Source: a virus
Strand: one strand, 5' to 3'
IMG/VR virus record: IMGVR_UViG_3300030380_002584
Location: 6,275 to 44,106 of that record
DNA length: 37,832 nucleotides
The notes beneath the pieces were generated by a model, which saw only the letters and a list, made by a program, of their open reading frames with translations, ran no database searches and was not told where the DNA came from. Positions 8,286-37,832 of the stretch are shown piece after piece. Numbering within the stretch: the stretch's first letter is position 1; every line of letters begins with the position of its first letter. The translations under genes and the position numbers were made by a program.

Positions 8286-11200
8286 ATGGGATTACGACCT
8301 AATTTTTTTGTACCTTCAGATGCTAAAGAAGGACTAGCTGAAAAAACCAGTAGAAATTTAAGTGAAGTATCACAATACGAAAGAGCTATTACACCTGACT
8401 TAGCAGAAGCTATGCGTGATATGGCTTACTCATATCCATCTATGGATAAAAGACTTGTAGCTTATTTACCTATGATGGGATTAAAAGCAGATGATGAAGA
8501 TACTTTAAAAATAGCACAAACACAACAACGTGCTATGGAAAAAAAACAACGTGTAAAAGTTAATACACAAGTTAATCCATTTAAACGTGGCACACAATTA
8601 TCTTTTTTAGCTATGGATTCTGCATTTCAAAATATATCAAGAAACTTTAAATCATCAGTTGTTGCTGCACAACAAACAGATACACCACTTACTAAAGCAG
8701 TATTAGGCAACACATTAGCAGGATTAGTGCCAGGAGATGCATTAACAGAATCTATACGTAAATCTACATTGGGTAAAGAATTTAATGAGAAATATAGTGC
8801 AACTAAACAAGCATATGGAGAAAACGAATTTAATCGTGCTATAAACGAAATACAAGCAGGTAGACCACTTAACTTAGGTGTTGGTCTTTTACCTAATTCA
8901 ATAAAACTAGAAGATACAGATGTCTATAGTAAACAGATTAAATTAGGTAAATCACCAACAGAAGCGTATGAAATTGCTGCACAAACTTATGGTAGACCAG
9001 TAACTGAAGAGTTTGAAAGAGATGAGTACCAAAATACATACACAACAAAAACAGGTGAAAGAATACCTATATCCCCTGGTCGTATTGTCGCAGCACAGTT
9101 TTCACAAGAAGGTGATTTATCATATGCATTAGCATCAACAATTATTGATGGTGCATTTAGATTAGGTGCAGACCCAATTAACTTATTACTTGGTTATGGT
9201 GGTGCTGCTAAGACTGCAGGTAGAAAAATTGTATCAAAGGCAGAAGTTGCACAATATGTAGATGATGCTGAATTTATGACTAGAGCATTACGTACATTTA
9301 AACCTACTAAAGCAGGTGCAGAAGCTAGAAGAATGACATTTGGTAAAACTGCAGAACAAGTTATGGATTCTAAATGGGGAGATAAATTTGTAGAAGCATT
9401 AACAGTAAACGAATCTGTATCAAGATTAAAAGATATACCTGCATTAGGTAAAGTAGACCCTAAAGTATTGAACTTACTTGCACAAGTTAAAAACAAAGAC
9501 AGTATGCGTGAAATAGTTATGTCGTTGTTAAAACATGGTGATTTGTCTGATTTAATGATTGCACCTTATTCAGGTTCTTTTGTTGGTCAAGAAATAGCAC
9601 AAGCTGCTATGCAAACGCCATTAACTAAATTACCAATGCGACAATCAGTTGTTGCAGATATGGCTAATGAGTTAGCTAAAAAGTTTGCAGGTCAATCTAT
9701 AGATATTGCACCACTTAGAAATACAATAGGTGCATTACTTGGTAAAGCTAAGGATGACCCATTTAGAGGTGTTGTTGGTATTGGTGGTGCGTTAAAAAAT
9801 GCTATACCACAACGTGTTAAAAGATTGTTTGATTTAGCACCTAGTAGATTTGCTGCAGTTAATTACATTGGTGAAACTATAGAAAACATTGATGGCATAA
9901 TGATTACATTAGGTGAAACACAAAAAACTAGAGATTTTTATATACGCGAATTATTAGAAGCTAGAAATCAAGATGACATTGTACGTATTGTTAGAACAAT
10001 GAACAAGCGTATAGAAGCAAAAGTTATTAAAGATAATCCTGATTTACAAGGTGAAGAGGATTTAGTCAAAGGTGTTATGGATTTTGTCAATAACGAAATT
10101 GCAGAAAAAAGAAAGTATTTGTATGACAGTGATGGACAACCATTATCTTTTCCTGGAACTAAATTTAAGTTTAGACCTGACAGAGTAGATGAAGAGGGAA
10201 ACATACTAGAAGCTACAGAGATAGCAGTTCCTACAGCGTTTTCTATAGGACAGTTTTCAGATAACTTTGTACCTCTTATTGATTACAAAGAATTAGGTAG
10301 GTCATTAACATCTTTTAGAAGAATAGTAGGTCCTAATAGAAGTGGTCTAAGAAAATTAATATCTACTACTTGGGGTCAAAAAAATTACAAGTTAACAGAA
10401 AAAATATTAGAAAATGCAAAGATACCTACTAGAGGTATAAAGAAAAACTTACGTAGTGGTAAAACTACATTAGCACCTACTGGTTGGATAGATTATATAT
10501 ATTCTGATTACATAATGCAACGTGCATTAAAACCATCATGGATGTTAAGGTTTGCTTTGACATTACGTGTGCCACCTGAAGAAGCTGTACGTATTGGTAT
10601 GTATGGTGGTCCTAATGTGTTTACACATCCATTGTTATTAGCATCTATGAAAACTAATGGCATATTTAAAAACAGTCCTACAAACATACAACTTGTTGAT
10701 AGTTTAGGAGAACAGTTATTTTCTACAAGTATTGCTGCAGACCAAATAGATAGTGTTGCAGAAACTATTGGTAATGTAGATATGCAAAAAGCACTACAAA
10801 CAATTAAGTATGATGACATACAACAAATAATGAAAGTGTTACGACTTAACACAAATGCATCAGGACAAGTAGGAGATTCGTTTATACAAAATGCTATTGA
10901 TGGTGGTAATGCTACTGACTTTGCATTTGATGAAATTAAAGGGCAGTTAAAACAACTTAAAACACAAAAAGTTAAACCAGTTGGTAATCTTGGTAATTCA
11001 CTAGAATTGCGTGACACAGATACATTTCCTCTAATAAGACCTTTTGCTAATTTATCTGATATCAAAAAAAACATATCTGTAATACCTAATAAAAAATACA
11101 AACAAATAGTTGAGGTAGAAACTAATGCAGAAATAGCACAAGCAATACAAAACTATGCAAATAATCCATCTATACAAATGCAACTTAAAAAATTAAATCA

Positions 11201-14200
11201 TGGATTGTCTATACAAGTAAAAGACAATTCTGTAATACTTGATGTTACTGTACAACTAGACAGTGGTAGCACAGCAGCAGAAGCAGATACAGCATTAAAA
11301 AATGCATTAAGTATTGCTGTTAAATCACATCAACCAAAAATATATTTAAGAGAAGATGCATTTAATTTATTACCTGATAGTAACCCTATAAAAAACAGTG
11401 CTAGGTATATAGAAGATGGTGGATTATTTGAAATATCTGTATATGCACAACCTGACCCACGTATAGATAATGTTGATATTAACTCACCTGTAATAAAAGA
11501 AGTAATGGAATATTTGTTTGATAGTAATTTTCAAACAGCTAAAAAAATAATTAATAAAAAAGGTGGATATGCACAAGCTGCACCTTCAGGTACATTCTTA
11601 AACACTACACCTGAATACATAACAACTATGTCAGAACAGTCATTGTTAAAAGCATTAAAACCACAAGGTAGACAATTAAACGCAGCAGAAGATTTTTACA
11701 TTATGGTAGATAAGTTTGAAGCTGATGGAACAATAAATCCTAGATATTGGCGTGGTTGGATTCACGATATGCTACAAAAAGCTAATGACCCTTTGTATGT
11801 TGTAGTTGCTAGAGATGGTGCAGACAAAGCATTAGATTACTTTACTAACACAACACAAGGTAAAAAATACATAGATGAACTTATACGTAGAAGTGATGAC
11901 CCTGATGTACGTGCAGTAATACAGGATAAAGACCAATTATTAAAATATCTTAAAACTGCAGAGTATGAAGTAGGTAGATTACAAGGCAATCCAAGTATGA
12001 GTATAAGTCGTAATGGACAAGCTATAACAGAACAACAAGCTAGAGATATGATGAGAACTGCAGATGGTTCATTTAACTTTCCTGATTACAGTGTAGATTT
12101 ATCTATGGGTGCTAAAAAAGTTAGAGAGTTTATTGCTAATGGTGGCTTTGTAGATGGTGAAGATTGGTTAGAGTTATCACAAAAATATTCTGTATTGTCT
12201 AGCAAGACTAATAAATTCTTTGATGATTATTACAACAAAATAAAAGAAGTTTTTGATGAAGATATAGTAAAACTAGATTTAGGACCAAGGCGACAATCAT
12301 TTAATAATAATCCTAATTTAACTACAACAGGACAAATAGCATCAAGTGCTATTAATAGATTTGATGAAGTATTAGGTAATGCATACTCTGCTTTATTAGC
12401 TAGACCTTCTGACTGGTTAAATCGTGACCCAATGTTTAGATGGTCGTTTTACACATTAGCAGAAGATTTGTTGCCATTTATGACAGAAGATGTAAAAAAA
12501 GAATTTGTAGTAGGTGCAAAGACTTGGATTGATGGTAGTGATTTATATAAAAATTTACTTAAAAAATCTGACTTAGCATCTACAGAAAATACTATTACAT
12601 CCTTAGAACAAGCAGAAACATTACTTAAATACAAAGCTATGGAAGAAGTAAAGAACTTATTATATGCTAGTTCTGACAGACACGTGTTATCTGATGTTAT
12701 GGCTTCGTATGTACCATTTCCTGAAATATGGCAAGAGGTTATTAAAACATGGGGTAAATTATTAGTAGACAATCCACAGAAGTTTAATAGAACACGTATT
12801 GCTATTGATAGAGGTAAGGAAGCAAAACCTTGGGACACAGACAATGCATTCTTTACATCTGACCCTGTTACAGGAGAATTGTTATTTAACTATGTAGATG
12901 TTATGCATATGATGACATTTGGTATGACAGCTATACCTGGTGCATTTGGATTTTCACCACTGCAAAAAGGTTTACTAGGAGAAAACTTAGAAGAAGAAGG
13001 TGTAAGAGTAAGACCATATGGTTTCTTAGAAGGACTTAACTTAATATCTGCAAATGGTTTTTCACCAGGTTTTGGACCTATTGTAACATTTCCATTTAAA
13101 GTATTAACTAAAATAGCTACAGTACCAGGATTTTTAAATGATTTTGTATTAGGTAACTTTGAACAACCTGGTGGTGGAGTTAGTTTTATAGATGAATTAC
13201 CTTCATGGTTTAAAGGGTTCTTAAAAGCTGTACCACTTACACAAGAAGCAACAGAAGAAATAAATGCATCTTATTCTAAAACAGTTATGGATTTGTTTAC
13301 GTTGTATTACTACGCAGGTAAGTGGACACCTGATGATGAAGAATCAATAAAGATAGCTATGCAAGAAGCAGAAAAAGCTGCTGCTATGCATTGGTTAGTA
13401 AGAGGTTCTGCACAAGCATCACTTCCTACAGCTATACAACCACGTTACGAAGTTAAGGATAAAAATGGTGCATGGTGGACAGTACAGGTATTAGGTCAAA
13501 AGTATCAACAAATGTTAGAAGCTAATCAGTTTGATTATTACCAAACAACTGAACAATTTATAAATAGATTTGGTATGAACCCTATACCACTTAGACAATC
13601 ATCTACTGTTAAAAAAGGTAGATTCCCTGTCAAAAAAGATTCATATGCATTTTGGCAAAAAAATGAAAACAAAGAACTTATGGAAAGAAAACCATATACA
13701 GCTATATATTTAAGACCTGACAGAGTAGATGATGACTTTTCTCTACCTGCATTTATGGCAGGTGGTGAAGCACTTAATCCTAGTGCATATCAACGTGCTA
13801 CTGTGCAATCATTATTACAGTTTGAGTTAGAAGCATTTAAAGAAGAATTAAAAAATGATAAGTCATTATCTCCAACATCAAGAAAAGAAAGATACTCTTC
13901 ATTTAGAACTAAAAAAGAAGAAGAGTATGGTGTTATATCTTATGGAAGTCTAGGTGATGCTGTAGTACAAGCAGATAAATACCAAATTATATTAGAACTT
14001 AGAGATTGGAAAAACGAACCATTACTTAGAGAATCAACTGCGTTTGAACCTCTACAAAAGTTTTTTAAAGAATATGATAGAGCTATTGATGTCGTACTTA
14101 ATGGTGGTAAGTTTAGAGAAATAGAGATACCTAAAGGTGGTATACCAGGTAAAACTGCTGCTACACTAAGTGGTACATCAGGTAATATTGATTTGATACG

Positions 14201-14318
14201 TGAAGAGCTAGATGCATATGCTAGAGAACTAGCGTTAGAATACGAAGATACTGAATGGATAAGTATATATTTAGGTAGTTTTTGGAAAGAATTAGATAAT
14301 AGAAGGTATTTGAAATGA
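8286..14318 (+). CDS. giant virion protein, probable DNA-ejection/internal protein
   Basis: 2010 residues, the largest gene here; rich in Lys, Asp, Gln and Ala, mostly helical. No RNA-polymerase, protease or hydrolase motif is visible. Two stretches resemble, from memory, very large virion proteins of actinobacterial phages: IGQFSDNFVPLIDYKELGR with LKPSWMLRFALTLRVPPEEA near residues 665-765, and a late hydrophobic Gly/Pro/Phe-rich part (about residues 1550-1650: PYGFLEGLNLIS, GFGPIVTFPFKVL) followed by SWFKGFL. The hydrophobic late region could insert into a membrane. Located in the cassette with wall-active proteins between portal and scaffold, it fits an ejection protein that exits with the DNA, but this is inference. 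Its stop overlaps the next start (ATGA). Confidence 0.7.
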   Translation: MGLRPNFFVPSDAKEGLAEKTSRNLSEVSQYERAITPDLAEAMRDMAYSYPSMDKRLVAYLPMMGLKADDEDTLKIAQTQQRAMEKKQRVKVNTQVNPFKRGTQLSFLAMDSAFQNISRNFKSSVVAAQQTDTPLTKAVLGNTLAGLVPGDALTESIRKSTLGKEFNEKYSATKQAYGENEFNRAINEIQAGRPLNLGVGLLPNSIKLEDTDVYSKQIKLGKSPTEAYEIAAQTYGRPVTEEFERDEYQNTYTTKTGERIPISPGRIVAAQFSQEGDLSYALASTIIDGAFRLGADPINLLLGYGGAAKTAGRKIVSKAEVAQYVDDAEFMTRALRTFKPTKAGAEARRMTFGKTAEQVMDSKWGDKFVEALTVNESVSRLKDIPALGKVDPKVLNLLAQVKNKDSMREIVMSLLKHGDLSDLMIAPYSGSFVGQEIAQAAMQTPLTKLPMRQSVVADMANELAKKFAGQSIDIAPLRNTIGALLGKAKDDPFRGVVGIGGALKNAIPQRVKRLFDLAPSRFAAVNYIGETIENIDGIMITLGETQKTRDFYIRELLEARNQDDIVRIVRTMNKRIEAKVIKDNPDLQGEEDLVKGVMDFVNNEIAEKRKYLYDSDGQPLSFPGTKFKFRPDRVDEEGNILEATEIAVPTAFSIGQFSDNFVPLIDYKELGRSLTSFRRIVGPNRSGLRKLISTTWGQKNYKLTEKILENAKIPTRGIKKNLRSGKTTLAPTGWIDYIYSDYIMQRALKPSWMLRFALTLRVPPEEAVRIGMYGGPNVFTHPLLLASMKTNGIFKNSPTNIQLVDSLGEQLFSTSIAADQIDSVAETIGNVDMQKALQTIKYDDIQQIMKVLRLNTNASGQVGDSFIQNAIDGGNATDFAFDEIKGQLKQLKTQKVKPVGNLGNSLELRDTDTFPLIRPFANLSDIKKNISVIPNKKYKQIVEVETNAEIAQAIQNYANNPSIQMQLKKLNHGLSIQVKDNSVILDVTVQLDSGSTAAEADTALKNALSIAVKSHQPKIYLREDAFNLLPDSNPIKNSARYIEDGGLFEISVYAQPDPRIDNVDINSPVIKEVMEYLFDSNFQTAKKIINKKGGYAQAAPSGTFLNTTPEYITTMSEQSLLKALKPQGRQLNAAEDFYIMVDKFEADGTINPRYWRGWIHDMLQKANDPLYVVVARDGADKALDYFTNTTQGKKYIDELIRRSDDPDVRAVIQDKDQLLKYLKTAEYEVGRLQGNPSMSISRNGQAITEQQARDMMRTADGSFNFPDYSVDLSMGAKKVREFIANGGFVDGEDWLELSQKYSVLSSKTNKFFDDYYNKIKEVFDEDIVKLDLGPRRQSFNNNPNLTTTGQIASSAINRFDEVLGNAYSALLARPSDWLNRDPMFRWSFYTLAEDLLPFMTEDVKKEFVVGAKTWIDGSDLYKNLLKKSDLASTENTITSLEQAETLLKYKAMEEVKNLLYASSDRHVLSDVMASYVPFPEIWQEVIKTWGKLLVDNPQKFNRTRIAIDRGKEAKPWDTDNAFFTSDPVTGELLFNYVDVMHMMTFGMTAIPGAFGFSPLQKGLLGENLEEEGVRVRPYGFLEGLNLISANGFSPGFGPIVTFPFKVLTKIATVPGFLNDFVLGNFEQPGGGVSFIDELPSWFKGFLKAVPLTQEATEEINASYSKTVMDLFTLYYYAGKWTPDDEESIKIAMQEAEKAAAMHWLVRGSAQASLPTAIQPRYEVKDKNGAWWTVQVLGQKYQQMLEANQFDYYQTTEQFINRFGMNPIPLRQSSTVKKGRFPVKKDSYAFWQKNENKELMERKPYTAIYLRPDRVDDDFSLPAFMAGGEALNPSAYQRATVQSLLQFELEAFKEELKNDKSLSPTSRKERYSSFRTKKEEEYGVISYGSLGDAVVQADKYQIILELRDWKNEPLLRESTAFEPLQKFFKEYDRAIDVVLNGGKFREIEIPKGGIPGKTAATLSGTSGNIDLIREELDAYARELALEYEDTEWISIYLGSFWKELDNRRYLK

Positions 14319-17085: not shown

Positions 17086-17261
17086 TGAAAGAAATAATAG
17101 AGTTTATAGAAGCTAATCCTGAATACAGTGAGTATCTTGTTGATGGTGAAGTGCAGTGGGAAACACTTGGTATTGATATAGATATAGAACGTAAAGCAAT
17201 AGATTATGTAAATGATGCAGAACTATTTATATCTGCAGTTTCTCTCGTTGATTTTGTATGA
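17085..17261 (+). CDS. small acidic protein wedged between virion genes
   Basis: A 58-residue protein with strong acidity (MKEIIEFIEANPEYSEYLVD then GEVQWETLGIDIDIERKAID); no Cys, no membrane segment, not recognised. It starts on the overlapping stop of the transglycosylase gene (TAATG) and its own stop overlaps the next start (ATGA), so its frame fills the gap exactly. This supports a real gene. It may be a chaperone or partner of the two flanking large proteins, by analogy to small acidic partners in other complexes. Confidence 0.65.
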   Translation: MKEIIEFIEANPEYSEYLVDGEVQWETLGIDIDIERKAIDYVNDAELFISAVSLVDFV

Positions 17262-20200
17262 ACCTAATTGAATTTACTACACTTGTATTTAATAATTTAG
17301 CAACTTACATTGATGATAATACTGATTTAGATTATAACGATTTATCAGATTCACAATTAGAAGCAGTACGTAATCAAATACGTTCTACTATTAGAGAAAC
17401 AGCAGATAATTATGATAGTAATAATTTTGCTGTAGCAGTAAGAACTAATATAGCTTCAAATTTAGCAGACCTTGCAGAAAATGCAGATATAGATTTGCCT
17501 AATAATTTTATAATAGAATTTTCTGATAAATTACAACAAATATCTGATGAACAAATTACACAGTTTTATTTAGTAGATGATGTTGTAGAACAAGCAACAG
17601 AAACCACACAAGCAGAACCAGTTGTAGATATGGACACTAGAGTGCAAGAACTTATGGATAACTCATCATCAGTAAGAGAAAAAACTATAAGGCAGATGGT
17701 AGATGATATTGCACAAGAAGAAAATCTTACAAACAGAGAAGGGTTATTAAAAAATGTAACAGTAGAAGATTCTATATTTTTTGGAGAAAATAAAAAAATT
17801 GTAATAGAAATAGTAAATACTGATACAGAGGTTGACAATATTGTAAATAGAGTTATTGATGGTGTAGAGGGTGATGACTTTGTTGTAGAAGTAGTTACAT
17901 ATGATGATGTAGATTCTGTGCATTTACGTGGTGCAAGACAGTTTGGTGTGCAAGATGTTACAAATAATTTACAACAGAAAGCAGAACAATCTAAAACATC
18001 TACACATTACTTTCCTGAAGCAAATGAACAAATGCAAATAAGGTTATCCAGTTTGTTAGAAGATAGAGAAAGAAACATTATATATAGAAGAGGAGAGGTA
18101 CAAAGAACACAAAATTTATATCGTAATGGTCCAAAAATAACTACAAATCAAACAGGTCATAAAGGTTTTGTTAAACATTTACGTAACAACTTACGTAATA
18201 ATGAAGTACAAAGCGTATTAGATACATCAAAAATAAAAGCTGTAATGGTTGCAGGTAATAAATCAGGTGGTACTACACAAAATATGTCGCCAATATTTAA
18301 GGGTGGTGTTAGTAAATATTTTAAAAAACTTGCAGAAAAACCTGATGGTGAAAGACTAGAAGCATTATCTAAAAAACCTGGATATACATTAGGTTATGTA
18401 TTTGTATCTCCTGATGGTTATGAACACATAGTATCTTTAGTGCATTCTGATGTGTATAATTTTAGAAATCAAAATAACAATATAAATTATATGAGGAATG
18501 CAAGAACTGCAAGTATAACTACAAACTTTTTTACTTTTCATCCACAAGCAGTAGATGGATATTATCCAAATATATTTGATGATAAATTTAGTGGTAAAAA
18601 GCTAATGATACAAAGAAAAGTTAATGAGTGGTTTCAAGGTATGTTACATCTTGCAGATTTAGATGGTGTTATATTAGACCAAAGTCCTATTAATGGACAA
18701 GTTGCTAACTTGTATCAAAAAGGTGGTTTTATATGGAATGATAATATACACATATATCAAGATAGATTAAGTCCAATGGATGGTGGTGGAGGTATGTTGC
18801 GTTTTCCTAGCAACAATAGAGAAGTAGTTGATGGTTGGAAAGCACAATTAAATATAAAACCTGAATGGCAAGTAGTTAACAGTGAAACATTTATAGAAAA
18901 CACACGTTGGTCTGAACCTAGACAAATAACAATGGTTGCTAAAAAAAGAAAGTATGGTCCAGGAGATTTAAAATATTCTGAAAGACACAAAGCATTAATA
19001 TCTTTGTCACAAGTTAATTACAACGATTTAACATCTTATCAAATAGAAAGAGTTAATTTTCAAATATTTGAAATAGCAGGTATAAATGGATTTAATACAA
19101 GTAAAATACTAGAACATCTTGATGCAAATACAGAAACAGCAAAATATTTATTTGATAGAACACAAGTAGATAGAGTAGTAGATAAAGCACTTAAAACTGT
19201 AAATCCTAAATTTCTTGCAGAAACTATTTTAAATTCATCACATATGGAAAATATTACTGGTGTCAATGTAGAACTATTATCTGACCAAGAAAAAGATTTA
19301 ATAAATTACAAAGACAAAATAACTATAGAAACAGCAGAAGATGGAAATATAAAATCATCAAGTGCATATAAAATATTTGAAACTGCATTAGATGGTGTAA
19401 GTCCACAAGTATTAACTGAATTAGAAATAGCAAATGCAGAAGGTCTTGATTTAGAAGATAGGCAAAAAGTTTACAACTTAGGTGAAGAAACTATTGTAAC
19501 AGAAGATACACCAACACCTGACCGAAGAACACTAGCTAGTAGAGTACAAACAGAAGAAGCTATAAGAAGCTACTCATTTGAAAGTGTTAGACAATTATAT
19601 AATGAAAATGTAGGCAATTATGAAGGATTTTATGGTCAAATAAGACAAACACTTGCAGATAATCCACAACTTATGAATGATGACTTTGGTTTACATGTAG
19701 TAGATTCTGACCACGTAAGCACATACTTAGTAGATGATGATGCATTAGTAGCACCTATACTAGAACAAAGTAATAACAGGTCATTTATTACAGATGAAGC
19801 TAGACACATATTTACTAGAAACTTACAAGCACTATTAGAAAAAGAAAATAGTACACTTTTAACTTCAGATATAAACTTTGTTGGTAGTCGTGATGGTATT
19901 AATTATATAGAAGTGGGTACTGTATATGAAAGTACATCTATACCATCAAGCACTGCACCTCCAAGATATTTACAAAAAGAATATACAACATACAGTTTAG
20001 ATAGGTCAAGAGATGGTACAAATATGAGGTTACGTAATGCTTTATCTACTTCTGAACTTCCAACACAGGCAATATCTAATGCATTAGCTTTAATGTTTAC
20101 AGAGTATGATGTGCCTTTAGATTACCCAAACTTTAGTGGTTTGCTAGATAAAATACATCCATCAGGAACTATAGGTTATCAAATGGGTGTTGTTAATAGT

Positions 20201-21622
20201 CGTGGTGCAGGTACTGTAAATCGTAGTAGAGGAAATACATCATTTGGTTTTGAGGATTACCAAGTATTAAGAGAAGCAACTACACCTGATGCATTACAAA
20301 CTACATTAGATGAATTTAGAAATCAACCAAGGCGACCAAGAGTTAGCAACACAGATGTATCACCACAACCTTTTTATACCAAGATGATGTTTGAAGATAT
20401 TAGAGCAGGTGTAAATAATAACGTAAATGATGTAATTAATTTGTTAAGTGATTTAGTAGATAACAAAACTACTGGTGCATTTAGTTTAAATATTTACAAA
20501 GATAGTTATACAAATAAAGTTGGCGAAGTATTTAAAAGACATGGACAACCAATACAATTTCGTGGAGTATCTGCACCAGACCCAATTAATTTTTTTGGTA
20601 AAGGTAATCGTTTACCTGATGAAGTATTTATAGGAGATGCAACATTAGTAGCACCACATCAAGATTTTATGAATGGTGTAATACTTGAATCATTAAGAAA
20701 CCCACAAGTAGATTATGGTAACTTACAACATGTATTAGGAAATCAGGTGATAGACAGTGCAAACAATGGTGAAGTTGTGCGACATTATGATGTAGCAGCA
20801 GAAACAGCAGTGCCATTAGTAGAAGATGACAACCTAGCACGTATACGTGCAAACTACAGTTTAGGCACAGACATAGGAGATGGTGGTGCTGACTTTGTCG
20901 GTAGTGCATTTAATCCTGATAGAACACCAGTAGGTTCTAAACCTGACCCTATGGCACTACGTAAAATTGCTAGAAGTTTTGCAAAAACAAAGACTGGTAA
21001 GACACTAGGACTAGCTTGGAAAACAATAGACATAGGTGAAACATTAATTGCTAAAGGTTTTGCACAAGCACAAAAAGCTGCAGCAGCAGCAGGTGCAGCG
21101 ACATTAGGTGGTGCAGCAGCGTTTGCAGCAACACTATGGGCAGTGTATGAAGTATCTAACCTTATAATTGCAGCAGGACAACAGATACCTGAACTAAAAA
21201 ATGTTATAGCAAAAAGAAATGAGATACTTAAAAATGGTGAAGAGTGGGAAAAACAAATTGTAGAAGAAACATTTTGGCAAGACTATGGTCCACAGATAAT
21301 AGAAGCATTACAACGTGCAGGAGATAGGTCACCATCAGAATTATTATCAGATAAAATATGGAGTTTTACTTTAGATAATTTACGCAGACAATCAGAGGGT
21401 GAAGTTTTTGAAGATGCGTTAATAGACACAAGTGAAGATTTAGACATAAGAGATGACATATATCGTGCAAGAGTACCTAACGACTATAAATTAGAGCAAA
21501 TGCAAAACAACATTGATTATGATAAAGTATTAACAGGATATTACAACAATAGACCTGAAGCTAATGTAATAGCAAATAGGACATTACAACTAGCTAATGA
21601 TGTTTATAATAGGGATAGATAA
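17258..21622 (+). CDS. giant virion protein, probable ejection/internal protein
   Basis: 1454 residues. The N-terminal ~250 are acidic and helical. Residues ~320-560 form an alpha/beta region with GYVFVSPDGYEHIVSLVHSD and QVANLYQKGGFIWND; the last of these resembles the 'A-x-x-LY-x-K-x-GF' motif of GNAT acetyltransferases, a weak hint only. A late Ala-rich hydrophobic segment (about 1270-1305: QKAAAAAGAATLGGAAAFAA then TLWAVYEVSNLIIAAG) could span a membrane. No full enzyme signature is seen. It starts on ATGA overlap with the small acidic gene and ends on TAATG overlap with the next. Its size, late amphipathic/membrane segment and neighbours suggest an internal protein ejected with the DNA. 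Confidence 0.65.
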   Translation: MNLIEFTTLVFNNLATYIDDNTDLDYNDLSDSQLEAVRNQIRSTIRETADNYDSNNFAVAVRTNIASNLADLAENADIDLPNNFIIEFSDKLQQISDEQITQFYLVDDVVEQATETTQAEPVVDMDTRVQELMDNSSSVREKTIRQMVDDIAQEENLTNREGLLKNVTVEDSIFFGENKKIVIEIVNTDTEVDNIVNRVIDGVEGDDFVVEVVTYDDVDSVHLRGARQFGVQDVTNNLQQKAEQSKTSTHYFPEANEQMQIRLSSLLEDRERNIIYRRGEVQRTQNLYRNGPKITTNQTGHKGFVKHLRNNLRNNEVQSVLDTSKIKAVMVAGNKSGGTTQNMSPIFKGGVSKYFKKLAEKPDGERLEALSKKPGYTLGYVFVSPDGYEHIVSLVHSDVYNFRNQNNNINYMRNARTASITTNFFTFHPQAVDGYYPNIFDDKFSGKKLMIQRKVNEWFQGMLHLADLDGVILDQSPINGQVANLYQKGGFIWNDNIHIYQDRLSPMDGGGGMLRFPSNNREVVDGWKAQLNIKPEWQVVNSETFIENTRWSEPRQITMVAKKRKYGPGDLKYSERHKALISLSQVNYNDLTSYQIERVNFQIFEIAGINGFNTSKILEHLDANTETAKYLFDRTQVDRVVDKALKTVNPKFLAETILNSSHMENITGVNVELLSDQEKDLINYKDKITIETAEDGNIKSSSAYKIFETALDGVSPQVLTELEIANAEGLDLEDRQKVYNLGEETIVTEDTPTPDRRTLASRVQTEEAIRSYSFESVRQLYNENVGNYEGFYGQIRQTLADNPQLMNDDFGLHVVDSDHVSTYLVDDDALVAPILEQSNNRSFITDEARHIFTRNLQALLEKENSTLLTSDINFVGSRDGINYIEVGTVYESTSIPSSTAPPRYLQKEYTTYSLDRSRDGTNMRLRNALSTSELPTQAISNALALMFTEYDVPLDYPNFSGLLDKIHPSGTIGYQMGVVNSRGAGTVNRSRGNTSFGFEDYQVLREATTPDALQTTLDEFRNQPRRPRVSNTDVSPQPFYTKMMFEDIRAGVNNNVNDVINLLSDLVDNKTTGAFSLNIYKDSYTNKVGEVFKRHGQPIQFRGVSAPDPINFFGKGNRLPDEVFIGDATLVAPHQDFMNGVILESLRNPQVDYGNLQHVLGNQVIDSANNGEVVRHYDVAAETAVPLVEDDNLARIRANYSLGTDIGDGGADFVGSAFNPDRTPVGSKPDPMALRKIARSFAKTKTGKTLGLAWKTIDIGETLIAKGFAQAQKAAAAAGAATLGGAAAFAATLWAVYEVSNLIIAAGQQIPELKNVIAKRNEILKNGEEWEKQIVEETFWQDYGPQIIEALQRAGDRSPSELLSDKIWSFTLDNLRRQSEGEVFEDALIDTSEDLDIRDDIYRARVPNDYKLEQMQNNIDYDKVLTGYYNNRPEANVIANRTLQLANDVYNRDR

Positions 21623-31842: not shown

Positions 31843-32418
31843 ATGATTACAGAAATTAAAATAGTAGAGAATTTTTTAACTCCTACTTATCATAAAGAAC
31901 TGTTAAACAGCTTAGATAGTCCTAATATGCCATGGTATTTACAAAAAAATATATCTTTCCAAACAGATAACAAATTATCACATAAAAACTTTGGTTTTAA
32001 TAGAACATACTATGATGAAAATGGATGGCGTTTAGATACAGATAACACAATAGATATTATAAAACCTGCAGTATATCAAATTATGGACACAGTTGGTGGA
32101 GTACAACCTTTAAGAGTAAGAGCAGATATGACTATGCAAAGTGATGAAGAACATAAACATGGAATACATATTGATTATCCAACTGCTAATATAACTACAA
32201 TTTTATATATAAATGATAGTGATGGAGATACAATATTTTATGAAGAAAGAACTTCCGATACAACTAAAAGATACCAACCTAATGATTTAAGCGAGATGAA
32301 AAGAGTAACACCTGTAGCAAATTCACTTGTAATTTTTGATGGATTTCAATTACATACAGGATGTTCTCCTATAAAAAATAGTAATAGAATACTTATTAAC
32401 TCCAATTATTTAGTATGA
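31843..32418 (+). CDS. 2-oxoglutarate/Fe(II) oxygenase-like protein 1
   Basis: A 191-residue protein of the prolyl-4-hydroxylase-like 2OG-Fe(II) oxygenase class: HxD in GIHIDYPT (H109, D111), the distal His in FQLHTGC (H171) and a basic 2OG ligand in NRILIN (R182). It would hydroxylate a substrate using 2-oxoglutarate and oxygen; the substrate is unknown. Beta strands IIKPAVYQI and TTILYIND fit the jelly-roll. Such genes are frequent in marine phages beside fibre genes, with possible roles in modifying fibre or host proteins (unproven). It is the first of two tandem paralogues. Confidence 0.8.
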   Translation: MITEIKIVENFLTPTYHKELLNSLDSPNMPWYLQKNISFQTDNKLSHKNFGFNRTYYDENGWRLDTDNTIDIIKPAVYQIMDTVGGVQPLRVRADMTMQSDEEHKHGIHIDYPTANITTILYINDSDGDTIFYEERTSDTTKRYQPNDLSEMKRVTPVANSLVIFDGFQLHTGCSPIKNSNRILINSNYLV

Positions 32419-32436: not shown

Positions 32437-32982
32437 ATGAAACCCTATAAAATTATAGATAATTTTTTAGATGAAAAATATTTTAAAGAATTACAAACAA
32501 CTTTTACAAGTAACAAATTTCCTTGGCATTATCAACCTATGTCCTCTAATACTCCTAATGGTTTTGATTTTGATTTTATGTTTACTCATAATTGTTATAA
32601 CTTTGATTATGGAGTTGCTAGTAGTGTATTTGAATTAATACAACCATTAATTATTAAAACTGGAATAGAGGCAGGTAAATCAAATTTAATGAGAGCAAAA
32701 TCAAATCTTTATACCAATCAAGCAGAAAATTTAGTACATCAAAAACACACAGATTATCCTGCTGAAATAGAATACAAGACAGCAGTATTTAATTTTACTA
32801 CTTGTGATGGTGGTACGATATTTTATATAGATGGTGAAGAAGAATTTGTAGAAAGTGTAGAAAATAGCATTGTTATATTTGATGGACCTACTGAACATGC
32901 AGGTGTAACTCAAACAAATTCTAATATACGAGTATTACTTAATATGGATTTTAATGAAGGTGAATATATTGGTAAATATTAA
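32437..32982 (+). CDS. 2-oxoglutarate/Fe(II) oxygenase-like protein 2 (tandem paralogue)
   Basis: A 181-residue protein with the same architecture as the gene before: HxD in QKHTDYPA (H104, D106), distal His in TEHAGV (H154), and Arg in NIRVLLN (R165). All ligands are present, so both copies may be active. The N-terminus MKPYKIIDNFLDEKYFKEL parallels the first copy's MITEIKIVENFLTPTYHKEL. Sequence divergence is high, so the copies are old or acquired separately. AGAAAGG lies 7-8 nt before the ATG. Its end overlaps the next gene. Confidence 0.8.
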   Translation: MKPYKIIDNFLDEKYFKELQTTFTSNKFPWHYQPMSSNTPNGFDFDFMFTHNCYNFDYGVASSVFELIQPLIIKTGIEAGKSNLMRAKSNLYTNQAENLVHQKHTDYPAEIEYKTAVFNFTTCDGGTIFYIDGEEEFVESVENSIVIFDGPTEHAGVTQTNSNIRVLLNMDFNEGEYIGKY

Positions 32983-33737: not shown

Positions 33738-33746
33738 TGTTATAAT
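33738..33746 (+). promoter_or_regulatory. extended -10 element before the lysis cassette
   Basis: TGTTATAAT, a TGn plus consensus -10, 7 bp before the ATG at 33754 and just after the stop of the preceding gene. It is in the TGnTATART set. The leader would be close to zero. Confidence 0.45.
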
Positions 33747-33753
33747 GTCCTCT

Positions 33754-33900
33754 ATGGATTTTATATTTGGTTTTGTTCTTGGATATTTTGTTAAAGAAAT
33801 TTTGGTTTATCTTAAAAGATTAGCTGATGGACCTATTGAACATAACTGGGATAAAGAATGGGATTGGATGTCACCTCTCCAGGAAGATGATTTACCATAA
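33754..33900 (+). CDS. small membrane protein
   Basis: A 48-residue protein: hydrophobic residues 2-20 (DFIFGFVLGYFVKEILVYL), then a charged Trp-containing tail (HNWDKEWDWMSPLQEDDLP). One N-terminal membrane span with an acidic/aromatic C-terminus. Its stop is directly followed by the next ATG. Unrecognised; by position it may belong to the lysis set. Confidence 0.5.
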   Translation: MDFIFGFVLGYFVKEILVYLKRLADGPIEHNWDKEWDWMSPLQEDDLP

Positions 33901-34065
33901 ATGACAAACAATGGCTATACACAAAAGGAACTGCTTAATATGGTCATTGAAAGACTAGATAGACTAGAAGAAAAACTAGATGCTAAGTTAGATAAAGCAG
34001 AGTTTTATAAAGTATTAACGCTACTCGTAGCACTAGGTGGAGTTGTTGCAGCGATTGTAATGTAA
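33901..34065 (+). CDS. XhlA/holin-like protein
   Basis: A 54-residue protein with an N-terminal coiled coil (ELLNMVIERLDRLEEKLDAK) and a C-terminal membrane helix (FYKVLTLLVALGGVVAAIVM). This arrangement is that of XhlA-type holin accessory proteins, which help permeabilise the membrane at lysis. Its stop overlaps the start of the next gene (TAATG). Assignment by architecture, not by sequence identity. Confidence 0.6.
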   Translation: MTNNGYTQKELLNMVIERLDRLEEKLDAKLDKAEFYKVLTLLVALGGVVAAIVM

Positions 34066-35948
34066 TGCTGCGAGTTCTATTCGCAGTTTTCTTACTGCTA
34101 CCATTACCTTTATATGCTAATGAAAACAATACAGATACTTCTACCACTACTACTACTAGCACTACTACTACTACTATCCCAGGAGAAACAGAAGAAGTAG
34201 AAACCTTTGATGGTCCACCTCCTGTAGAAGAAGAGGAAATTGTAGAGGAAGAAACTACTACAACTACTACAACTACTACGACTATACCCACTTATGAACA
34301 AGCTACTGATATAGAGTTACCTGAAGATGAGTTAAACCTTGATGGTAATGAAGTAGAGAACAATATAGTTATTGATAACAATTATGATGGGCAGTTTGGT
34401 TGTACAGATTTTTGTATGAACTTACATTACTTCCAACATGGTAACGATAGTGAAGATTACACATTTATATTACCTGAAACTACCACAGTAGAAGAGGAAG
34501 AACTAGACATAGAGATATACGAAGTAGGTTTTACTATAGGTGCATTAAACAATGAAGGTACAGTAACTTATACACATACAGATGAAACAACACAAGAGAA
34601 TGTACTAGATGCACAGAGTAACTCTAACTTAGAAACTATGTTAGAAAAGGTAGTTTATAATATCTACGATACTTTAGATACTTTTATAGAAAGTTTTACC
34701 ATAACAATTAATGACTGGTCATTGTTAGATGACATATCTTTTAAGTATGTTATGCCTACTACAACTACTACCACTACAACAACTACTACAACTTTGCCTC
34801 CACCACCACCTGAGCCACCACCTCCACCACCTGAACCTGAAAAGTTTGAGGTTGTAATGGAAGATGGTTCTGTTGGTGAGTATCAAGAACACGAACTAGA
34901 AGATGGCACAGTTGAGCGTGACAATGAGCGTAAAGCTAACGAAGATAAGTTTGGTTGTTATATGACTGATGCACAAATAGAGCGTGGTGATTGTGATATA
35001 CCAGAGGAAGAACTAGAAGAAGAAGTTATAATTATAGAAGATGAAGAACAATACGATACCAAAGAAGAACTTTCTGATGATGATGATATGGTACTTGACC
35101 TGGAGTCTGAAGATGAAGTGGAAGAACTTGAACCTTTGGAAGAAGAGATTGTTATTAAAGAGGAAGATAAGATTGACATTGAGGAGTTTGAAGAGGAATT
35201 TATTATTGAAGAAGAAGTTATTGAGATACCAGAAGAAATAATAATTGTTGTAGAAGAGGAAGTTATAGAAGATGAGTTGGATAAAGAGATACCAGGAGAT
35301 GACATCATCAGAGAAGAAACAGTTCAAGAGGAAGATGTCAAAGACCAAGTTTTACAGGAAGTAGAAGAGCTTACTGAAGAAGAAGTAGCTGTTGAGGTTG
35401 CTGAAGTAGAAGAAGTCATAGAAAATATTGTTATAGAAGAAGTTACTACTGAAGAAGTTATAGAGGTTATAGAACAAGTCAATGACATTGGTGTACAAAA
35501 CCTAGACCAAGCAACAGAAGAAGTACAAGAAGTTGTACAAGCTGTTGTTGAAGAAGCAATAGAAAATGTAGAAGAACTCACAGAGGAACAAGTTGCAGTC
35601 GTAGCAGAAGTATTACAAGTAGAAGAAGATGATATTGAGATTATAGCTGAAGCTGTCAAAGAAGATAAAGTCGTAGCTGAAGCAGTAGAAGAGTATGTAG
35701 AGAGAGCTGTAGAAAATGCAGATGTAGAGAACTACACACTAGCTGATGTTGTAACAGAGGTACAGTACGAAGCATTCTTAGAAAACCCAATAGAAACATT
35801 TGTAGATTTAGATTTTGAAGGTATAACTATAAGCAATTTAGGAGATGATATGACACAAGACCAAAAAGAAAAAGCACAGGAGGTCGTAGTTCCTGTAATC
35901 TTGACTAGAATAGCTAGTATGGCAGCTTTTGTATTTAGGAGGAACTAA
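34065..35948 (+). CDS. secreted acidic protein with Thr-rich stalks
   Basis: A 627-residue protein. Residues 1-18 form a Sec-type signal peptide (MLRVLFAVFLLLPLPLYA). Then come Thr runs at 25-37, 64-73 and 232-243, the last followed by Pro-Glu runs (245-258); Cys pairs C113/C117 and C298/C310 in similar FGC-C modules; an extreme Glu/Asp-rich stretch from about 313 to 470; a helical repeat region (TEEQVAVVAEVLQVEEDD); and a hydrophobic C-terminus ending VVVPVILTRIASMAAFVFRR. It looks like an extracellular, wall-spanning protein with a C-terminal membrane anchor. It recalls Thr-rich surface proteins of actinobacteria (memory), but its role (lysis, superinfection exclusion, adhesion) is not shown. 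Acidic codons GAA/GAG dominate. Confidence 0.6.
   Translation: MLRVLFAVFLLLPLPLYANENNTDTSTTTTTSTTTTTIPGETEEVETFDGPPPVEEEEIVEEETTTTTTTTTTIPTYEQATDIELPEDELNLDGNEVENNIVIDNNYDGQFGCTDFCMNLHYFQHGNDSEDYTFILPETTTVEEEELDIEIYEVGFTIGALNNEGTVTYTHTDETTQENVLDAQSNSNLETMLEKVVYNIYDTLDTFIESFTITINDWSLLDDISFKYVMPTTTTTTTTTTTTLPPPPPEPPPPPPEPEKFEVVMEDGSVGEYQEHELEDGTVERDNERKANEDKFGCYMTDAQIERGDCDIPEEELEEEVIIIEDEEQYDTKEELSDDDDMVLDLESEDEVEELEPLEEEIVIKEEDKIDIEEFEEEFIIEEEVIEIPEEIIIVVEEEVIEDELDKEIPGDDIIREETVQEEDVKDQVLQEVEELTEEEVAVEVAEVEEVIENIVIEEVTTEEVIEVIEQVNDIGVQNLDQATEEVQEVVQAVVEEAIENVEELTEEQVAVVAEVLQVEEDDIEIIAEAVKEDKVVAEAVEEYVERAVENADVENYTLADVVTEVQYEAFLENPIETFVDLDFEGITISNLGDDMTQDQKEKAQEVVVPVILTRIASMAAFVFRRN
34137..34175 (+). 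repeat. ACT-codon repeat tract 1 (Thr stalk)
   Basis: Near-tandem ACT/ACC/TCT/AGC codons encode Thr25 to Thr37 of the secreted acidic protein. Such tracts change length by slippage or recombination in whole codons without breaking the frame. Confidence 0.75.
34254..34283 (+). repeat. ACT-codon repeat tract 2 (Thr stalk)
   Basis: Ten Thr codons (mostly ACT with ACA and ACG interruptions) encode Thr64 to Thr73, followed by Ile-Pro as after tract 1. Confidence 0.75.
34758..34835 (+). repeat. ACT- and CCA/CCT-codon repeat tracts (Thr then Pro stalk)
   Basis: Twelve Thr codons (34758-34793) are followed by a run of Pro codons broken by Glu. This gives a rigid stalk of about 30 residues. It resembles tracts 1 and 2 in codon content. 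Confidence 0.75.
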
Positions 35949-36454
35949 TGTTAACAAGCAGTAAAATATTGTATTCAAAAGGAAAAAATGATGAGTGTTA
36001 TACACCTCGCTATGGTGTGTTGCCAATATTAAAATATATTCCTACTGATGCTACTATTTGGTTGCCATTTGATACAGAGGATAGTTTTTTTTATAAAGAA
36101 ATATCTAAAACAAATCCTGTTATTGCAACACATATAGATAATGGGCAGGATTTTTATGACTATGAACCATACTATTGGGATATGATTATATCTAATCCTC
36201 CATTTACAAATAAAAGATTAATTTTTGAAAGAGCATTAAGTTTTAATAAACCTTTTGCTTTGTTAATGTCTAATACTTGGCTTAATGATGCAGCACCTAA
36301 ACAGTTGTTTAAACACAAAGATTTACAATTATTAATGTTTGATAAAAGAATTGAGTTTAATAATAATAATAAAATTACTTTTTCTAGTTCTTACTATTGT
36401 TGGAATTTTTTACCACAACAAATTATAATGGAAGAAATAAATAAAAAAATATGA
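35948..36454 (+). CDS. adenine-methyltransferase-like protein (NPPF motif), truncated build
   Basis: A 168-residue protein with NPPF at 83-86 (MIISNPPFTNKRLIFERALS), the catalytic motif IV of N6-adenine methyltransferases, and WLPFDTEDS (38-46) in place of the usual FxGxG SAM-binding loop. It continues FALLMSNTWLNDAAPKQLFK. It is shorter than normal methyltransferases and lacks a clear SAM motif and target-recognition domain; known phage relatives are annotated as methyltransferase-like, so activity is uncertain. AGGAGG is 4 nt before its ATG. It ends overlapping the next gene (ATGA). Confidence 0.6.
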   Translation: MLTSSKILYSKGKNDECYTPRYGVLPILKYIPTDATIWLPFDTEDSFFYKEISKTNPVIATHIDNGQDFYDYEPYYWDMIISNPPFTNKRLIFERALSFNKPFALLMSNTWLNDAAPKQLFKHKDLQLLMFDKRIEFNNNNKITFSSSYYCWNFLPQQIIMEEINKKI

Positions 36455-36639
36455 TTAAAAAAATTTGGAATTGGTTTATAACTATAGTTAAAGAAACATT
36501 AAACCTTAGTTGGACTTTGGTTGGTTTAATTATTGCAACGCTGACACTAACTGGTTCTGCACAGCAAGTTACAGGATTAGCTACTATAATTACACTAGCT
36601 ATTTGGTTATTGACCATTAGTTTTAGAAAAGGAGAATAG
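36451..36639 (+). CDS. two-span membrane protein, holin candidate
   Basis: A 62-residue protein with two hydrophobic helices (about 18-35 and 40-57: LSWTLVGLIIATLTL and LATIITLAIWLLTISF) and short charged ends. Class II-like holin topology. It begins on an ATGA overlap with the methyltransferase-like gene. It lies close upstream of a 12-residue mini-ORF and the DUF5675-like gene. Confidence 0.55.
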   Translation: MIKKIWNWFITIVKETLNLSWTLVGLIIATLTLTGSAQQVTGLATIITLAIWLLTISFRKGE

Positions 36640-36640
36640 T

Positions 36641-36679
36641 ATGGACTGCTGTGGTAGTGGTTGCTGTGGTGGTAAGTAA
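36641..36679 (+). CDS. 12-residue Cys-rich mini-protein
   Basis: Encodes MDCCGSGCCGGK. An AAAGGAG at 36628-36634 is 6 nt before the ATG. The stop overlaps the next start as TAATG. Two CC pairs separated by three residues could bind a metal or form disulfides. Its smallness makes expression uncertain, but the site and coupling are better than chance. Confidence 0.45.
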   Translation: MDCCGSGCCGGK

Positions 36680-36768
36680 TGTGTGCTACTTTTGTTAATG
36701 AAGAGGGTACTTACATTACGATATGTAACGATAAATATGGAGGTATAGGTGAAGTTAACTGTAGTTAG
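36679..36768 (+). CDS. 29-residue Cys-containing mini-protein
   Basis: Encodes MCATFVNEEGTYITICNDKY followed by GGIGEVNCS: three Cys (2, 16, 28). It starts on the TAATG overlap with the 12-residue frame and its last part contains the GGAGG ribosome-binding site of the next gene, which it overlaps by 20 nt. It could be a leader peptide for that gene; not recognised. Confidence 0.45.
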   Translation: MCATFVNEEGTYITICNDKYGGIGEVNCS

Positions 36769-37339
36769 AACACAATTTGGAACAGATGCAACAAATGGGT
36801 TGCTATTTATTAATGGTATTTTTGAGTGCTATACGCTAGAGGACCAGTATCAAGCAGTAAAGGTTATGCACGAAACCTGCATACCAGAAGGAACTTATGA
36901 TATTAAATTTAGAAAGACAGGTGGTTTCCATGCTAAGTATTCAGAGAGATATAAGAACGCACACTATGGCATGTTGCATATACAAGATGTGCCTAACTTT
37001 ACCTATATACTTATACACACAGGCAATACTGATGAACATACATCAGGTTGTTTAATTGTAGGAGAAACACAACAAGATTTAGAAATATCTAAAGATGGGT
37101 TTATAGGCAGTAGTACTGTAGCGTACAAAAAAATGTATGCAAAAGTTGCAGGGCAGTTGCTTCAAGGCAAAGATGTAACTATTGAATACACAACAATAAA
37201 TAAATTATTAGAAAAAGAAGTAGATAACAAAGCTAAAGACCATGTTGTTTTAGCTGACACAGTATATGAAAAACTACAAGAAATAAATGGAAATGTATTA
37301 CAAACTAATGCTATGTTGAAAGGCAGGTTAATACAATAA
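36749..37339 (+). CDS. DUF5675-like protein, candidate lysis/peptidoglycan protein
   Basis: A 196-residue protein from GTG 36749 with GGAGG (36739-36743) 5 nt upstream. Seen: CIPEGTY (44-50), YILIHTGNTDEHTSGC (86-101) with His90 and Cys101; this matches the DUF5675 (PF18925) pattern, a family of phage and bacterial proteins with a His..GC motif reminiscent of L,D-transpeptidases (memory). No standard endolysin (amidase, muramidase) is in the cassette, so this is the best candidate for the wall-acting lysis enzyme; the assignment is inference. The C-terminal ~65 residues form a helical extension. Next gene starts on the stop (TAATG). Confidence 0.6.
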   Translation: MKLTVVRTQFGTDATNGLLFINGIFECYTLEDQYQAVKVMHETCIPEGTYDIKFRKTGGFHAKYSERYKNAHYGMLHIQDVPNFTYILIHTGNTDEHTSGCLIVGETQQDLEISKDGFIGSSTVAYKKMYAKVAGQLLQGKDVTIEYTTINKLLEKEVDNKAKDHVVLADTVYEKLQEINGNVLQTNAMLKGRLIQ

Positions 37340-37620
37340 TGTTTGATAGAATTAAAAGAGCAAGAAACCAAGATGGTACATTTAAGAAAGATGTATGGTG
37401 GACACCCTGGTCTGATTCGTGGGAGTATAAAATGAGTGAAGAACTCAAAGATATGCTTGAAAGAGCCATTTGGACCTTTATTGAAGCGTTCATTGGTGCA
37501 TTGACAGTTGCTCCATTAGTTGGTGTAGAAGCTGAAACACTTCAGTTAGCTGCATTAGCTGGTGGTGGTGCTGCACTTGCAGTCATTAAGACATACGCAA
37601 AAAAACAAATTACTAAGTAG
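37339..37620 (+). CDS. r1t-type holin-like protein
   Basis: A 93-residue protein. After a polar N-terminus, LERAIWTFIEAFIGALTVAP and TLQLAALAGGGAALAVIKTY form two membrane helices; the ERAxWTFxEA pattern and the Ala/Gly-rich second helix fit the r1t/Phi-type holin family common in phages of Gram-positive hosts. It has a basic C-terminus (KKQITK). TAATG overlap with the DUF5675-like gene supports a lysis pair. Confidence 0.7.
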   Translation: MFDRIKRARNQDGTFKKDVWWTPWSDSWEYKMSEELKDMLERAIWTFIEAFIGALTVAPLVGVEAETLQLAALAGGGAALAVIKTYAKKQITK

Positions 37621-37641
37621 CTGATAACGTCATAGTCTTAC

Positions 37642-37649
37642 TGTATAAT
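37642..37649 (+). promoter_or_regulatory. possible -10 element for the last gene
   Basis: TGTATAAT: consensus TATAAT (37644-37649) with TG directly before it. It lies 22 bp upstream of the ATG at 37672, with AGAAAGG at 37659-37665 as ribosome-binding site. The -35 position (CTGATA) is weak. Confidence 0.45.
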
Positions 37650-37671
37650 ACTATTAACAGAAAGGCTGCAT

Positions 37672-37832
37672 ATGACTAAAAAGAAAGACTTAGGTAATAA
37701 CTATTACCGTTCCGGATGGCAACCGTCAGCTGAGTTTGACGAGCAATCAGGTCTCGGTGAAATAACACACATAGGAACTGACCCTAACTATAAGAATAAG
37801 TTTGATTCTATCCTACGAGAGTGGGGATTTGA
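37672..37832 (+). CDS. partial protein, start of the next module
   Basis: The first 53 residues of a gene running off the window. Begins MTKKKDLGNNYYRSGWQPSA, and continues with THIGTDPN and SILREWGFD. The last words recall the 'ILREWGFDP' region of early proteins of actinobacterial phages, but it is too short for a call. Base composition is a little more G+C-rich than the lysis genes. Preceded by a promoter-like -10 and AGAAAGG. Confidence 0.6.
   Translation, partial: MTKKKDLGNNYYRSGWQPSAEFDEQSGLGEITHIGTDPNYKNKFDSILREWGF

Follow-up and report, generated by a model that had tools for sequence, protein, structure and literature searches.

The window analysed here is a stretch of 37,832 nucleotides, i.e., bases 6275-44106 of a 44,106-base virus record. 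Near its end lies the ORF P0001 (627 aa, positions 34065-35948, + strand), which together with its relatives is named the c0 family. The features of P0001 and of its neighbours are the following (window coordinates; basis in brackets where one applies):

33745-33900, + strand: c14, 51 aa, N-terminal TM helix and acidic C-terminus ending EDDLP (30 relatives, in the same place before c7)
33901-34065, + strand: c7, 54 aa, coiled coil and C-terminal TM, XhlA-like shape (relatives)
34065-35948, + strand: P0001 (c0), exported, C-terminally anchored, 627 aa (ORF and relatives)
34065-34118, + strand: signal peptide, residues 1-18, cleavage between LYA and NE (rule-based test)
34137-34175, + strand: first Thr stretch, residues 25-37 (13 residues: 11 Thr and 2 Ser)
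34194-34760, + strand: ectodomain, residues 44-232, beta-sandwich (jelly-roll) (AF2, Foldseek)
34254-34283, + strand: second Thr run, residues 64-73 (10 Thr), an insert in the ectodomain
34758-34832, + strand: third Thr run and Pro-rich stalk, residues 232-256
34845-35009, + strand: segment 261-315 with the second Cys pair (FGCYMTDAQIERGDC), kept in most marine members
35010-35474, + strand: acidic tract, residues 316-470, 48% D+E (composition, pN/pS)
35475-35864, + strand: conserved all-alpha region, residues 471-600 (relatives, model, pN/pS)
35865-35945, + strand: near-invariant C-terminal anchor KEKAQEVVVPVILTRIASMAAFVFRRN (relatives, tails, pN/pS)
35937-35942, + strand: AGGAGG, the codons of the terminal RR and Shine-Dalgarno of the next gene (junction sequences)
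35948-36454, + strand: methyltransferase-like ORF, 168 aa, NPPF motif, between c0 and c6 (phrog_799, E=3e-30)
36451-36639, + strand: c6, two-TM partner, 62 aa, positive ends, invariant LTG[ST]A turn (relatives)
36749-37339, + strand: DUF5675 protein, H...SGC motif, likely endolysin (PF18925, E=8.9e-30; weak Tlde1 match)
37339-37620, + strand: r1t-type holin (phrog_443, E=3.5e-7; sub-threshold PF16945)

The order c14, c7, c0, c6, DUF5675 protein, r1t-type holin, phosphoesterase is found in about 110 loci of the close group, with sizes of about 50, 55 and 60 aa for c14, c7 and c6, respectively. The stop of c7 overlaps the start of P0001 by 1 nt; c7 is near the c0-c6 junction in 61/76 loci and has a weak sub-threshold match to phrog_937 «hemolysin» (E=0.03). 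The DUF5675 protein occupies the endolysin position in about 60 loci; with its H...SGC motif and weak Tlde1 similarity, it probably represents an L,D-transpeptidase-fold endolysin family, unannotated as such. In the promoter and terminator scan, sites were no more frequent than in shuffles. Upstream of the Pro-rich P0001, two tandem genes (31843-32418 and 32437-32982) resemble 2OG-Fe(II) oxygenases of the prolyl-hydroxylase type, and their PHROG label «DNA endonuclease V» was set aside on that ground. Two very large ORFs (8286-14318 and 17258-21622, i.e., 2010 and 1454 aa), without match in PHROGs, lie between the terminase and the major capsid protein (MCP).

Bases 1-2234 of the record repeat window positions 35263-37832 at 79-92% nucleotide identity. 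This repeated end holds the last 270 residues of P0001 (87% identical), c6, the DUF5675 protein and the holin, and its copy has no methyltransferase-like ORF. Probably, the record maps a circular or permuted genome of about 42 kb that was closed with sequence from two strains; a genuine, diverged duplication is a possible alternative. In RS345, an Actinomycetota MAG, a 58-kb contig carries its c0 region twice at a distance of about 44 kb, which is consistent with a genome of that size.

The anatomy of P0001 is read directly from its translation. The signal peptide (MLRVLFAVFLLLPLPLYA, followed by NE) has counterparts in the relatives that are unrelated in sequence and equally typical. A first, sequence-only reading had listed three Thr runs of 13, 10 and 12 residues among the features of 34065-35948, and this description is accurate in nearly every detail: all three runs are present, the first being not pure Thr. 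The second is missing in the relatives L065 and L077. The third (residues 232-243, 12 Thr) is followed by Pro runs at residues 245-249 and 251-256. The Thr and Pro runs are encoded by imperfect arrays of ACT/CCA triplets, thus their length is expected to drift, and the antisense ORFs across 34065-35948 are mirror images of the repeats. P0001 contains four Cys only (113/117 and 298/310), i.e., those of both FGC..C segments. The acidic tract (155 residues) has a net charge of -68, and the pI of the whole protein is 4.05. The top hydrophobic 19-mer (residues 606-624, Kyte-Doolittle 1.87) is followed by RRN, the C-terminal hydrophobic helix thus ending in FRRN.

Comparison of relatives with the P0001 of the window gave the following pN/pS per segment (uncorrected proportions, with partly saturated synonymous sites): anchor 0.065, C-terminal region 0.16, ectodomain 0.24 and acidic tract 0.55. 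A frame kept under such low ratios and relatives on hundreds of contigs indicate that P0001 is a translated gene, and rule out a repeat artefact.

Relatives of c0 in IMG/VR number 226 in one scan and at least 554 in another, and two more scans brought in divergent members. The carriers are hundreds of uncultured-virus contigs from sea and lake. No relative was found in INPHARED, nor any match of P0001 above cutoff in Pfam, PHROGs, NCBIfam, PDB and PADLOC; the family is undescribed to date. The signal-peptide rule is passed by 133 of the 142 distinct complete c0 proteins vs. 104 of 1754 other genes at the same loci (6%), signal peptides and TM anchors being both assigned by simple rules; of the nine that fail, most appear to be truncated fragments or to reflect the choice of start codon. 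A C-terminal hydrophobic helix with a basic end is present in 223/223 distinct tails, the last seven residues of which contain at least 2 basic and 0 acidic residues. Export of a phage-encoded protein and a hydrophobic anchor with a basic end, as proposed at first sight, thus extend to the family. Also conserved in the family is an alpha-helical C-terminal region, marked by the motif MTxDQ[KR]xKAxEVVVPVI...RR.

The other parts vary. D+E is below 20% in 23 of the 142 complete proteins, 17 of which are also without any Thr run of at least 5 residues. The freshwater members L224, L239, L252, L267 and L278 («freshwater» being read from data-set numbers and WhiB-bearing backbones) have neither poly-Thr nor acidity, with 12-17% D+E over the whole protein. 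L267 and L224, which were scanned, have a PA14 domain (PF07691) above its cutoff, and in L267 a PT-repeat stalk is also above cutoff. Among 558 c0 pairs with at least 90% identical C-termini, 207 differ in ectodomain class, the classes (jelly-roll, FN3-like, PA14) being assigned by simple motifs and the FN3-like one by eye. The outer domain is exchanged freely and the c0 tail and c6 remain together. Since the C-terminus and anchor are the most constrained parts and the Thr and acidic parts are variable, the working core would consist of the C-terminal region plus some displayed outer domain. The acidic and Thr parts behave as a stalk. In L041 (1-1980), an N-terminus of calcium-repeat type (DTDGDGLEDYSEYKNG...) is joined to the usual c0 C-terminus; it is either an exotic ectodomain or a chimeric assembly.

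The AF2 model of the ectodomain is a beta-sandwich of moderate confidence, with a mean pLDDT of 59 (70-86 in the C-terminal half). Foldseek against PDB points to CBM61, CBM35, the AlgX CBM, a depolymerase (E about 0.01) and toxin domains, with no match under E 0.001 in PDB or in BFVD. In its model, the C-terminal region is helical throughout and ends in a 29-residue helix; this model has no match in PDB. From PA14, the weak CBM-like jelly roll and the FN3-like class, c0 ectodomains are probably of adhesive or glycan-binding type.

Directly after c0 comes c6, a protein of 60-160 aa across the family, without signal peptide, for which no sequence match was found. It is short, with two predicted TM helices in an N-in/C-in layout (sequence layout by eye). 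The coupling of the two genes is seen directly: the c6 pattern is matched by 262 ORFs in 261 loci, 262/262 have an ORF directly upstream, and in 259/262 the gap lies between -8 and +1 nt, i.e., -4 (147), -1 (71), 0 (23), -8 (14) and +1 nt (4), the other three having inserts of 127-165 nt. The upstream ORF is of c0 type in all loci except the window. There the methyltransferase-like insert, found in the window record only, keeps both start/stop overlaps. The first Arg codon of the terminal RR is AGG in 118/138 junctions vs. 8% of the Arg codons elsewhere in the same genes. Because AGG supplies the Shine-Dalgarno of the next gene, part of the constraint on RR is at the DNA level; this leaves the invariance of the preceding hydrophobic helix unexplained.

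Moreover, c0 tails with TRI in the helix go with LNLSWT-type c6 (160/160) and those with SQ/SN with AQ/NQ-type c6 (100/100), no crosses being found in either set. The natural reading of this pairing would be a direct c0-c6 contact in the membrane, but two old linked lineages would yield an identical table. Some c6 have a long N-terminal extension rich in membrane-hugging repeats (c6 then having 130-163 aa in total): L134 697-1188, L143 8681-9079 and L249 4660-5064. Next to c6, freshwater phages encode a small Cys-rich lipoprotein (L267 8009-8404, L249 5073-5309), placed after c6 and before a 136-aa TM protein and the CHAP endolysin; it is a possible third member of the module.

The location in a lysis region, with the DUF5675 protein and the r1t-type holin downstream, agrees with the first reading, and so does the association of the relatives with lysis genes. 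A holin or endolysin relative lies within 5.5 kb of the junction in 76/76 distinct loci flanked by at least 2.5 kb on each side; an endolysin is among these neighbours in 74/76, and a holin or endolysin is present in 180/185 junction loci overall. As close-group loci share ancestry, locus counts are not independent, and independent support for the module comes from its recurrence in several unrelated backbones. L134 carries the pair with a different terminase and portal; L136 (G042:C11, from a genome in the order of RS345) is a phage with c0-c6, WhiB, an amidase endolysin and a holin; freshwater contigs with the pair reach 115 kb. The endolysin differs by backbone: DUF5675 in the window and L143, amidase in L136, CHAP in L267 and the freshwater contigs. 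In the freshwater and L143 backbones the lysis neighbours are kept and those on the other side are non-structural, thus c0-c6 is tied to lysis and not to the tail.

WhiB has been called a key indicator of actinophages (PMC10202952) and is above cutoff in 10 of 20 long contigs. It was sought in the window's own phage group and not found, so that the host of this group is deduced from the shared module and from the resemblance of its MCP and terminase to those of actinophages (the MCP resembles actinophage MCPs only, at 25-30%). We hold with good confidence that the hosts of the family are Actinobacteria, and with moderate confidence that the host of the window phage is actinobacterial, in line with the Gram-positive-type envelope proposed at the outset. 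MAG labels are unreliable in this respect, since the 6 loci retrieved from GTDB with the c0 C-terminus lie in MAGs whose labels are Gammaproteobacteria, Actinomycetota and Flavobacteriaceae. The sequence-only reading had suggested looking for the same C-terminal domain in host genomes: in those of the one order searched, that of RS345, it occurs on phage contigs only, and among 396 genomes sampled across the phylum RS345 was the sole one with a match. A host origin of the ectodomain was rejected as well, its matches in this order being confined to phage contigs. O-mannosylated Thr stalks were rejected too, no protein mannosyltransferase (PF02366) being above cutoff in 42 genomes of the same order.

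The place and the pairing of c0 suggest that it helps to break or to control the envelope of the cell as infection ends. Our preferred reading, to which we give a probability of roughly 0.45, is that P0001 is a wall-crossing lysis accessory, similar to spanins or LysZ in role and not in homology. c0 would be the surface subunit and c6 the partner in a two-protein membrane module that aquatic actinophages carry in their lysis cassettes. Sec would export c0 at a late stage of infection, and its C-terminal helix would keep it in the cytoplasmic membrane, presumably beside c6. The disordered stalk would take it across the wall, and the swappable domain, probably glycan-binding, would be presented outside. 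c0 could then grip the surface glycan layer from the membrane, as spanins or LysZ act; once the holins have fired and the wall has been opened by the endolysin, what is left of the envelope would be torn or unable to hold the cell. This reading is favoured because (i) c6 is directly downstream of a c0-type ORF throughout, the window insert aside; (ii) c0 tail and c6 types never cross while ectodomains swap; (iii) the anchor is the most constrained segment; (iv) all 76 flanked loci are near a holin or endolysin; (v) different endolysins accompany the pair in the distinct backbones that carry it; (vi) the ectodomains belong to adhesive or glycan-binding types; (vii) c6 shares its 2-TMD, N-in/C-in layout with LysF1a, a holin-like protein of mycobacteriophages (PMC13056207). 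According to the same source, LysZ of Corynebacterium phages is reported to act on surface lipoglycans, so such a job exists in actinophages. Against it, an outer membrane is called «unlikely» for Actinomarinales (PMC7771536), and in hosts thought to be devoid of one a strict spanin has nothing to fuse. The isolated actinophages of INPHARED lyse without the c0 family, and operon position means co-expression at best. The tail/c6 pairing may stem from two old linked lineages, and the ectodomain model is weak. Finally, such variability of the outer domain is not required of a lysis part and fits surface recognition or defence.

A rather unlikely alternative is superinfection exclusion or receptor masking, in which the ectodomain would occupy or block glycans used by other phages and its swaps would track host glycan variants and competing phages. 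It explains fast swapping on a constant anchor better than a lysis accessory does, c0 being exported and membrane-anchored with a large surface part, and it has exported precedents in Ltp of S. thermophilus phages and the Ltp-like gp41 of C. acnes phages (PMC3952083, PMC11480721). However, it explains the cassette position worse: a fixed place there suggests that c0 is made late, at a time when exclusion brings the least benefit. Proteins of Ltp type are also small and come from temperate or pseudolysogenic phages, P0001 has no PADLOC match, and the obligate two-TM partner would be without reason. This partner is central if c0 is instead an (anti)holin regulator of c6, taken as a class II holin-like protein: the c0 TM helix would restrain or trigger c6, and the ectodomain would sense outside conditions, for instance secondary adsorption or glycan binding. 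Such surface-linked control of lysis is unlikely, although it accounts best for the strict tail/c6 pairing and fits the translational coupling, the near-invariant TM segments of both proteins and a polar residue within the c0 helix, either Arg or Gln/Asn, whose identity follows the type of c6. Mycobacteriophage lysis is moreover controlled by holin-like 2-TMD proteins (PMC13056207). But the holin function of c6 is putative, an r1t-type or other holin is already in each cassette, and the TM pairing may reflect shared ancestry. An improbable elaboration is a phage-made surface receptor wired to a holin, whose ectodomain would sense a ligand (host glycan or adsorbing phage) and whose matched c0/c6 helices would delay or trigger lysis; if true, it would be a modular lysis switch with swappable input, widespread in actinophages of sea and lake.

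That P0001 is a virion protein (fibre or receptor-binding protein) is very improbable. It follows the tail-fibre region in the window (glycine-rich protein, 2OG oxygenases) and its ectodomains resemble adhesins, but fibres are built in the cytoplasm without a Sec signal, which 133/142 members have. In addition, the variable part is N-terminal, the constant part is a hydrophobic helix, and the freshwater and L143 backbones keep lysis and not structural neighbours. The acidic tract could itself act, by calcium or metal capture or by a charge keeping cells and virions apart, as its 155 residues at 48% D+E and the pI of 4.05 invite one to think. This is the least credible of all, since the tract is the least constrained segment and the freshwater members reach 12-17% D+E overall; it is disfavoured as the core of the family and could persist as a marine adaptation of the stalk. 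The sequence-only reading, sound on anatomy, had taken the Thr stalks and the acidic tract for the working part, with metal capture as one possible job; the former idea is not supported, since freshwater members have neither part (17 of 142 proteins are below 20% D+E and have no Thr run of 5 or more), and the weak constraint on the tract argues against metal capture as the core function. Neither the two-TM protein that overlaps P0001-type genes nor the exchange of ectodomains had been noticed in that reading.

The c0-c6 pair is thus a lysis-cassette module without database family, carried by hundreds of phage contigs of sea and lake. The hosts of the carriers would be ultra-small streamlined actinobacteria (Actinomarinales-like and probably Nanopelagicales), which are among the most abundant surface-water cells. 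If a lysis accessory is the right reading, the module would show how phages finish Gram-positive cells without mycomembrane, a final step for which, to our knowledge, hardly any proteins are known outside mycolata. The exchangeable ectodomains also constitute a catalogue of probable binders of the glycans on the surface of uncultured hosts.

By defining features P0001 is neither a spanin nor LysZ (no lipobox, reversed anchor, no similarity). As described in PMC13056207, LysZ is, like P0001, an actinophage lysis-cassette protein with one TM and a large outside part, and its proposed action on surface glycans is spanin-like. It differs by its size (177 aa), by an N-terminal TM in N-in/C-out orientation, and by having no signal peptide, C-terminal anchor, stalk, swappable domain or known overlapping two-TM partner; no similarity between LysZ and P0001 was found in the INPHARED phage collection. 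Spanins (lambda Rz/Rz1, unimolecular) form, like c0-c6, an overlapping two-gene, envelope-spanning late lysis module. The presumed topology of c0, an inner-membrane TM with a large extracytoplasmic domain, is theirs, and u-spanins share the C-terminal TM. On the contrary, P0001 has no Cys in the signal region and the relatives listed have no lipobox, c6 is a two-TM hairpin and not a lipoprotein, and the hosts are thought to be without outer membrane. Ltp-type proteins (TP-J34 Ltp, gp41 of a C. acnes phage) are, like c0, phage-encoded, exported and surface-displayed with a negatively charged region; unlike c0, they are small, N-terminally anchored and outside lysis cassettes, and no sequence relation was found. 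In the case of c7, XhlA of PBSX likewise combines a coiled coil with a C-terminal TM and belongs to a lysis cassette, the phrog_937 match being sub-threshold only. LysF1a, a holin-like protein of F1 mycobacteriophages (PMC13056207), and class II holins (S21) have the size class and two-TMD N-in/C-in layout of c6, the difference being that c6 is paired with an exported surface protein.
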